A stretch of DNA of 64,000 nucleotides from Campylobacter estrildidarum. GTDB lineage: Bacteria > Campylobacterota > Campylobacteria > Campylobacterales > Campylobacteraceae. The stretch lies in NCBI RefSeq assembly GCF_005406205.1, contig NZ_NXLZ01000007.1, forward strand, positions 1 to 64,000. The letters run 5' to 3'. Positions 15,259 through 33,293 of the stretch are shown here, in pieces. The position numbers and the translations under genes are program-made. The notes under the pieces were generated by a model. That model saw only the letters and a program-made list of their open reading frames with translations, did not search any database and was not told the DNA's origin. The first letter of the stretch is position 1. Every line of letters begins with the position of its first letter.

Positions 15259-15942
15259 TTTGTCCTATGTAGATAAAATGTTGCACACTACCTTCAAAAT
15301 TATAAAGGTTAATAAGCTCATAATCACCCCAAAATAAAGGTTTAAAAGGTTTAAAATCTTCTTTTAATTCTTCAATATCTTGAGTAAAGCGAATGAAAGA
15401 AGAGCCGCTTAATCTACTACCAGGGCGTCCTTTGACTTCACGTAAGCCATTTTCCATAATTTCCCCTCTTTCGGCCATGCTATAGCCTTTATCACTTATC
15501 ATTGTTGCAAAAATAATAGCATCTTCATTGCAAATATCATATAATTCTTGAATGGTTTGCTTAAAACTTTTAAAAGGAAGATAATAAAGACTTTGATTGG
15601 CTAAAATCAAATCCATTTTTACATTAAAAAGATTTTTTATATTTGAATTGGGAGCAATAACATGAAAATTATTAGAGTTTAATTTAGGATCTCTTTCCCA
15701 AATTTCTTTTAAACTAGGAACTATATCTAAGCCGTAAGCCTTATACCCCCCCCCGTAGTATCTTGAAGATATTTAGAATGAATACCATTTCCACAACCAA
15801 AGTCAAGTAAATTTCCACTTGTTTTGTTGAGTTTATACTTTAAAATTCTTTCGTAAAACCTTATGATATGACCATCAGGATATTGTAATCCATAGTTTTC
15901 TTTTTCGTATTTTTGAGTGTAAGCAGATAAAGAATTATCCAT
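15254..15942 (-). CDS. Phase-variable class I SAM-dependent methyltransferase (frame OFF)
   Basis: The gene is split by a G9 tract (coding strand). From the ATG at 15942 (RBS AAAGGAG) the protein reads MDNSLSAYTQKYEKENYGL, reaches the SAM motif LLDFGCGNGIHSKYLQ, then the tract, and stops after GGGIRLTA. The second half (GLDIVPSLKEIWERDP onward, to YIGQK) is open in the next frame. One added G (G10) would join them into about 229 residues. It corresponds to the phase-variable C. jejuni Cj0170, linked to motility (from memory). The substrate is unknown. An upstream in-frame ATG at 16002 lacks an RBS and encodes an implausible hydrophobic lead. Confidence 0.85.
15746..15754 (-). repeat. G9 homopolymer contingency tract inside the methyltransferase gene
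   Basis: Nine C on the plus strand (nine G in the coding strand), inside the SAM-fold region. Slipped-strand mispairing would switch the frame: the present length is OFF and G10 is ON. Confidence 0.95.
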
Positions 15943-32339: not shown

Positions 32340-32557
32340 TGTTACTGAGTACACCATGTAGGGGAATAGTAGATACAAATTTTGAAAGCAAAAGAATAAA
32401 TATAACTTTATCTTTAAAATTTCAAGAAAAAAACGAAAAAGCAGAAGCTAAAGATAAGAAAAAAGAAGAAATTCGCTCACAAGATAAAGACGATAGTAAT
32501 TCTTTAAGTCCAAACTCTAAAAACAAAAAAGATAAACTTTTAGATATATCTGCTTAA
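32339..32557 (+). CDS. Small Lys/Glu/Asp-rich protein coupled to the micro-protein
   Basis: 72 residues from the ATG at 32339, which overlaps the preceding stop (TAATG); a TTG at 32312 is an alternative. The start MLLSTPCRGIVDTNFESKR has one Cys and no signal peptide. From about residue 28 it is a highly charged, probably disordered stretch (KFQEKNEKAEAKDKKKEE, then SQDKDDSNSLSPNSKNKKDK). If the two frames were joined by a -1 shift, the result would be a single secreted protein with four Cys, so this may be the second half of a broken or recoded gene. No family recognised. Confidence 0.5.
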   Translation: MLLSTPCRGIVDTNFESKRINITLSLKFQEKNEKAEAKDKKKEEIRSQDKDDSNSLSPNSKNKKDKLLDISA

Positions 32558-32580
32558 GGGTGTTTTTACACCCTATTTTT
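32557..32580 (+). terminator. Rho-independent terminator after the micro-protein pair
   Basis: A 7-bp stem AGGGTGT/ACACCCT with a 4-base loop and a T5 run at 32576-32580, starting on the last base of the stop codon. It closes the 32208-32557 transcription unit. Confidence 0.85.
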
Positions 32581-32725
32581 ATTAATTCCTAAGAAATTTC
32601 AAAATTTTTTATCCATTGCAGATACTTAAAATGATTTTATTTTTTTAACATCTTACTAATCGATTTAATAATTTTTTGCTTCTTTTTATATTTAATAATA
32701 GTTTTAAATTTCAGCTTGAATTAAT

Positions 32726-32734
32726 GGGGGGGGG
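32726..32734 (+). repeat. G9 tract abutting a -10 box (possible phase-variable promoter)
   Basis: Nine consecutive G. The base after the tract is the first T of TATAAT. In this AT-rich genome, such tracts are the classic contingency-locus signature. It lies outside any gene I can support, 33 bases upstream of the YqaE-like start. Confidence 0.9.
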
Positions 32735-32740
32735 TATAAT
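32735..32740 (+). promoter_or_regulatory. -10 box for the YqaE-like/lipoprotein pair
   Basis: TATAAT directly after the G9 tract, 27 bases before the ATG at 32767, with an RBS TTAAGGAG. Tract length changes would move all upstream promoter contacts relative to this box. Confidence 0.65.
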
Positions 32741-32766
32741 AGCATTTAATTTTTTAAGGAGAAAAA

Positions 32767-32970
32767 ATGAGGCTAATCATTTGTATTTTATTGCCTTGGC
32801 TAGGATTTTTTACTATAGGAAGACCTTTTGCAGCTATTATATGTCTTATCTTGCAAATTACTCTTATAGGCTGGTTACCTGCTATGATTTGGGCTGTGTA
32901 TGCTCTTAGTCAATACAAAACAGATCAAAAAATTGCAAAAATTTTAAAAGAACAAAATAGGGGGATTTAA
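32767..32970 (+). CDS. YqaE/Pmp3-like small membrane protein
   Basis: 67 residues with two hydrophobic helices (about 3-15 and 20-45) separated by GRPF, and a polar tail (YKTDQKIAKILKEQNRGI). The arrangement recalls YqaE/Pmp3 (UPF0057) or TM2-type small proteins; the identity is weak. The RBS is AAGGAG. The stop overlaps the next gene as TAATG. Confidence 0.6.
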   Translation: MRLIICILLPWLGFFTIGRPFAAIICLILQITLIGWLPAMIWAVYALSQYKTDQKIAKILKEQNRGI

Positions 32971-33293
32971 TGAAATATATTTTATATATTTTTCTAGTTT
33001 TTATTTTAGGTGCTTGTTATCAAAAAGGCTTAGAGGTTAATCAAGGTAAATTAAATTCTATTGTTATAGGCAAAAGCACACAAGAAGATGTGGAAAAAAT
33101 CATAGGCTATCCTGTAAGAAAAACAAGTTTGGGCAATAAAGAAGTATGGTATTATGACTTTACTAGAATTTCTTCATTTCCTGGATTTGATAAAGACGAA
33201 AGCACAGTTTTTGAATTTAACAAAAAAGGTGTGGTGGTCAAGAAATATAAAACTACAGGTTCTGGAAATTCAAATCCTTTATTAGGTAGATAA
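32970..33293 (+). CDS. SmpA/OmlA (BamE-like) lipoprotein
   Basis: 107 residues. The lipobox is FILGACYQKG (Cys16). The mature part has the BamE-fold pattern: LNSIVIGKSTQEDVEKIIGYPVRKTSLGNKEVWYYDF, then VFEFNKKGVVVKKY. BamE-like domains bind partners in outer-membrane assembly or inhibit other proteins. Its small-membrane-protein partner and accessory location suggest it is not the housekeeping BamE. It is coupled to 32767-32970. Confidence 0.7.
   Translation: MKYILYIFLVFILGACYQKGLEVNQGKLNSIVIGKSTQEDVEKIIGYPVRKTSLGNKEVWYYDFTRISSFPGFDKDESTVFEFNKKGVVVKKYKTTGSGNSNPLLGR

Follow-up and report, generated by a model that had tools for sequence, protein, structure and literature searches.

Poly-G tracts in Campylobacter promoters are known as a kind (PMC6321876; capC). 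In the genus, 25% of SSRs lie outside ORFs (PMC6321876), which agrees with the statement in a preliminary description of the DNA studied here that most tracts of the genus act inside genes. The phasome survey assigned no expression state to SSRs outside ORFs because their effect is hard to predict (PMC6321876), and a 2026 C. jejuni library omitted intergenic tracts (PMC13317227). The capC gene of C. jejuni and C. coli has a G tract of variable length upstream of its start codon, ranging in C. jejuni from G4 to at least G10 with a mode of G9; in the available portion of that report (PMC7168839), tract length had no link to gene intactness, expression was not measured, and the promoter was called only "putative", with the -10 box, the upstream element and the spacing left undefined. 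In Neisseria meningitidis porA, a poly-G tract lies between the -10 box and an upstream element, and slippage alters their spacing and gives graded expression (PMC3639595); the spacing there is to a -35 element, with an optimum of 17 nt (per PMC7864442). The Treponema pallidum tp0126 and tprL promoters contain poly-G tracts of about 7–11 residues whose length affects the output of reporters in E. coli, but tp0126 has a -35 element, also with an optimum of 17 nt, and the tprL tract overlaps the -10 region itself (PMC7864442). All tracts of Helicobacter canadensis vary in length in sequencing reads, including five homopolymers located in promoters (four of G, one of A), although the accessible part of that report lists these as possible promoter tracts without a shared anatomy (PMC2823697). 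Ordinary Campylobacter sigma-70 promoters are T-rich around -27 and -38 (PMC3847290, PMC3656092) and have a -10 motif given as gnTAnaAT (PMC3847290) or TGxTATAAT (PMC3656092); mutations in their A/T-rich upstream pattern affect transcription in C. jejuni (PMC3656092).

The window, i.e., the whole 64,000-nucleotide stretch of C. estrildidarum DNA analysed here, reads AGTTTTAAATTTCAGCTTGAATTAAT-GGGGGGGGG-TATAAT-AGCATTTAATTTTTTAAGGAGAAAAA-ATG at positions 32700–32769. The features of this locus are as follows.

32557..32574, + strand: terminator-like hairpin with a T-rich tail, ATTTTTATTA, between the upstream small ORF and the promoter
32709..32714, + strand: TTTCAG upstream element, separated from the tract by 11 nt and from the -10 box by 20 nt
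32726..32734, + strand: G9 homopolymer, the proposed slippage site, spanning -21 to -13
32735..32740, + strand: -10 box TATAAT, with no base between it and G9
32744..32749, + strand: predicted transcription start zone, unmapped, placed by the -10-to-TSS distance in PMC3847290
32755..32757, + strand: TAA stop in the Pmp3 frame, between the G tract and the ATG
32756..32762, + strand: Shine-Dalgarno sequence AAGGAGA
32767..32970, + strand: Pmp3/YqaE-family small membrane protein, 67 aa (PF01679, E 4.7e-8)
32970..33293, + strand: BamE-like (BamE-domain) lipoprotein, 107 aa (PF04355, E 6.7e-7)

The preliminary description had proposed that the G9 tract ends exactly where TATAAT begins and that the two form a promoter. 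The tract ended at 32734 and the box started at 32735, 26 nt upstream of the pmp3 ATG (32767). The last Gs of the tract together with TATAAT, GGTATAAT (32733–32740), fitted the Campylobacter sigma-70 motif gnTAnaAT and were its sole match in the intergenic region 32575–32766; this intergenic promoter position held a homopolymer of at least 7 G, as is required of an SSR-driven transcriptional phase-variable promoter. The upstream TTTCAG matched a genus-wide TTTAAG element and was kept in an alignment of four species. The hairpin at 32557..32574 was refolded and had 7 pairs; one such hairpin was found versus 0.5 in shuffled sequences, and its conservation in relatives was not clear. The junction itself was confirmed, and reading the site as a promoter is well supported by the sole gnTAnaAT match, a conserved core with a diverged upstream flank, the upstream hairpin and the in-frame stop. 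The predicted start zone would place the G tract outside the transcript.

When the locus was compared in one genome per species, the best match was C. aviculae MIT17-670 (93% identity in Pmp3), followed by Campylobacter sp. W0018. At the orthologous place, C. aviculae, W0018 and a third relative (G067) had G10 as against G9 here, and A, T and AT, respectively, stood between G10 and TATAAT. The tract length at the pmp3 locus therefore differed between species, as would be looked for in a slipping tract. In the four-species alignment, 16 of the 20 nt directly 5' of the tract were identical, compared with 6 of the 120 nt farther upstream.

The preliminary description had also placed a membrane protein and a BamE-like lipoprotein downstream, and the PF01679 and PF04355 matches confirmed this pair. 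The Pmp3 score of 33.3 bits was above the Pfam gathering cut-off of 22.9, and the Pmp3 stop and the lipoprotein start shared one base (TAATG). NCBIfam gave a name to neither gene, and no paper on Pmp3/YqaE in Campylobacter was found. In another Campylobacter genome (G017), Pmp3 was absent from the locus downstream of trxB, and TTTCAGTCGAAATTAA-G10-TATAAT directly preceded a 64% identical orthologue of the lipoprotein. This lipoprotein behind its own G10-TATAAT supports the assignment of the tract promoter to the pmp3/lipoprotein pair and suggests that the lipoprotein is a client of the promoter in addition to Pmp3.

The genome of C. estrildidarum (1.66 Mb, 48 contigs), in which tracts were read region by region, contained 26 distinct tracts of at least eight Gs; most were within reading frames and a few others were intergenic. 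Three of the 26 directly abutted TATAAT, compared with 0.027 expected from the hexamer frequency (P = 2.8e-6), and a dinucleotide shuffle gave an expectation of 0.08 G8 runs in the window. G9 was also the commonest length among the coding tracts of this genome and was thus not specific to promoters. The other two promoter-type G9-TATAAT sites (G000:C2:1-209 and G000:C3:33415-33445) preceded a DltA-like adenylation-enzyme gene, truncated where its contig stops, and a gene for a capC-like autotransporter. The window had a second G9 at 15746–15754 on the minus strand, inside an ORF of some 249 codons that crosses the tract if one G is added; it is a candidate for the usual translational phase variation.

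A profile search of 49 Campylobacter genomes detected 13 Pmp3-type genes, distributed over 12 of the genomes; ten of the genes were clear and three divergent (E about 1e-7), and they were located at several unrelated loci. All 13 had a homopolymer at the promoter position. Eleven had G9–G14 against a -10 box of TATAAT, TACAAT, TATCAT or TAGAAT, with two bases intervening in G067, and the remaining two had TTTAAGCAAATATTC-A15-TACAAT (G009) and T14-C-TAAAAT (G017). In G009 (L193), the A tract seemed to stand in place of the G tract at the same promoter position. Among 249 genomes of the order outside the genus, a Pmp3 promoter with G9-TATAAT was found in one sister genus (G145) and one with G12-CATAAT in another family (G169), whereas most other Pmp3 genes had ordinary promoters. 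A second Pmp3/lipoprotein locus showed signs of decay, namely an early TAG in the lipoprotein gene of G069 (L302) and a TTG start of the Pmp3 gene of G060 (L198).

The junction was not limited to Pmp3 genes. The pattern G7-N(0,1)-TAYAAT gave 112 match rows in 34 of the 49 Campylobacter genomes, compared with 15 for the reversed control (overlapping rows being counted), and the occurrence in 34 genomes indicated that the window site belongs to a recurring promoter class and is not a one-off. Among the sites read, 62 were of the promoter type and a handful were coding; most junctions lay 26–61 nt upstream of an ATG with a ribosome-binding site. BLASTP grouped the 54 sites with a readable start codon into 18 protein families, which comprised capC-like autotransporters (PF03797), Pmp3, an adenylation enzyme near DltA, O-methyl phosphoramidate transferase, Helicobacter-type outer membrane proteins, PAP2, sulfatase-like proteins, an FkbM methyltransferase, an FAD-binding protein, BamE-like and other lipoproteins, and several unknowns. 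The junctions lay mostly before envelope genes.

The anatomy over about 16 unrelated families was a TTTAAG-like element, 10–12 nt, G8–14, 0–1 nt, TATAAT and a short leader. After removal of the sites that had been fetched for containing TTAAG, which left 16 families, a TTTAAG-like hexamer (at least 5/6 matching) was found 10–12 nt before the tract in 12 of them; 10,000 shuffles gave a mean of 1.0 and a maximum of 6. The TTAAG-first search was excluded from the statistics because the counting of overlapping rows made its controls noisy. The distance from TTTAAG to the -10 box was 19–24 nt and peaked at 20 and at 23 nt. Tract length and the remainder of the spacer compensated for each other weakly or not at all (correlation -0.08), and we therefore claim no fixed optimum spacing. 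Of the three positions of the A/T-rich periodic signal of Campylobacter sigma-70 promoters (-17, -27 and -38), the class profile was T-rich at about -27 and -38, and its -17 segment was the G tract; in contrast, ordinary promoters of the same genome were T-rich at -18 to -15 and G was nearly absent from -19 to -17 (the G at -14 being present by construction), so that Gs wholly replaced this T-rich stretch in the class. A core CTTTAAACTTAAATTTAT-Gn-TATAAT, identical but for the tract, occurred with n = 8, 9 and 10 at 3, 13 and 1 sites, respectively. At least five Ts just after the -10 box (-4 to +1) were present in 30 of 54 G-tract promoters (7 of 18 families) and in 5 of 47 ordinary promoters.

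Compared with the systems described above, the layout of the window was that of the capC-like autotransporter genes in this analysis, TTTAAACTTAAATTTAT-G8..10-TATAAT, although capC is another gene. Whereas the porA tract separates a -10 box from a -35 element, the window has an extended -10 core with TTTCAG 20 nt away, and the TTTCAG/TTTAAG element of the class lies at 19–24 nt. Neither a canonical -35 element at 16–18 nt nor a TTGACA-like partner for this -10 box was found in the window, so the site, although it may work like porA, is a different type of promoter. In another family of the order (G107; L330, L343), a canonical TTGACA occurred 7–10 nt before G12-TATAAT, which is closer to the porA layout.

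Given the observed anatomy, recurrence, conservation and length differences between relatives, we consider it probable (about 0.7) that the pmp3/BamE-like pair is served here by a sigma-70 promoter that is phase-variable at the level of transcription, with the G tract as its hypermutable -13 to -21 segment. Slipped-strand mispairing would add Gs to the tract or remove them, leaving the -10 box and its flanking -14 G unchanged at every length. Each slip would alter how far the -10 box lies from the upstream T-rich/TTTCAG element (about -38 to -22), and with it the helical phase between the two; the tract would stand in for the T-rich -16 region and set the distance to the upstream T-rich contacts. 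Transcription of both genes would then rise or fall randomly and reversibly, and probably by degrees. Graded, reversible changes are to be expected when the -10 box stays intact while upstream spacing is altered, since upstream mutation alters transcription in C. jejuni (PMC3656092). By analogy with porA, tp0126/tprL and general promoter biology, we infer that tract length alters transcription; the start site, slippage in this strain, and the sign and size of the expression effect are presumed as well.

Several other explanations were weighed. The promoter may be real and the tract may slip with length hardly mattering, the GnTATAAT extended -10 setting the output. Since a -35 box is dispensable for Campylobacter promoters (in C. 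jejuni, 95% of sigma-70 starts carry gnTAnaAT and lack a -35 box; PMC3847290) and the -14 G is retained whatever the tract length, such an extended -10 might fire alike at all lengths; the promoter could also simply be weak, as the tract displaces the T-rich sequence that is usual at -18 to -15. We regard length-independent output as unlikely, because long G runs, though rare by chance in this AT-rich DNA, recurred at one and the same promoter position in about 16 unrelated families, where a conserved element accompanied them at a set distance upstream, and upstream A/T-rich mutations do change C. jejuni transcription. A role of the tract within the mRNA leader is much less probable still. A longer transcript from upstream, with tract length setting sRNA binding or translation, would resemble the Helicobacter pylori RepG/tlpB case, in which RepG of this related organism acts on a G repeat of variable length within an mRNA leader (PMC8295292, as far as its available text goes). 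However, no other gnTAnaAT was present upstream, the upstream sequence was unconserved and contained the terminator-like hairpin, and an Rfam search gave no match; moreover, at dozens of loci the tract ran directly into the -10 box, an arrangement that would leave the tract untranscribed.

Translational phase variation, with the tract inside a Pmp3 frame that is extended upstream (ATGGGGG...), could be imagined, since AT precedes the tract to give ATG-GGG at many sites and a 77-aa TTG frame crosses the tract here, yet there was no Shine-Dalgarno sequence before the tract and the frames after the box soon closed at most other sites. The TAA at 32755..32757 excludes a frameshift switch of Pmp3, because no tract length can join an upstream start to the Pmp3 frame, and translational variation of this kind is highly improbable. 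Least credible of all was a random G run beside a random TATAAT, or an assembly artefact. Although the assembly is a draft of 48 contigs, the comparative data contradicted a chance origin: abutment reached P = 2.8e-6 in this genome, three other species had a tract at the corresponding position, and the layout recurred in 34 of 49 genomes.

The proposed phase-variable promoter of the window may be one instance of a stereotyped slippage promoter in Campylobacter and sister genera, in which the G tract is an adjustable spacer to a TTTAAG-like element and which was fixed independently before some 16 or more unrelated, mostly envelope families, with Pmp3 genes, all detected copies of which in the genus lie behind a homopolymer (sometimes of A or T), as obligate clients; we hold the odds of this broader proposal to be even. 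If it is true, membrane stress physiology itself would be phase-variable, and a membrane-stress protein family would join the phase-variable repertoire. The shared anatomy would allow promoter tracts to be called from sequence and, together with the fixed place of the tract, means that the effect can be predicted and put to the test in a single series of reporters. This class-level generalisation looks undescribed in the searchable papers, a body that mostly leaves out subscription journals. In another genome (G018), two paralogous O-methyl phosphoramidate transferase genes (L158 and L159) had near-identical promoters that differed by one A between G9 and TATAAT and thus form a natural one-base spacing pair.
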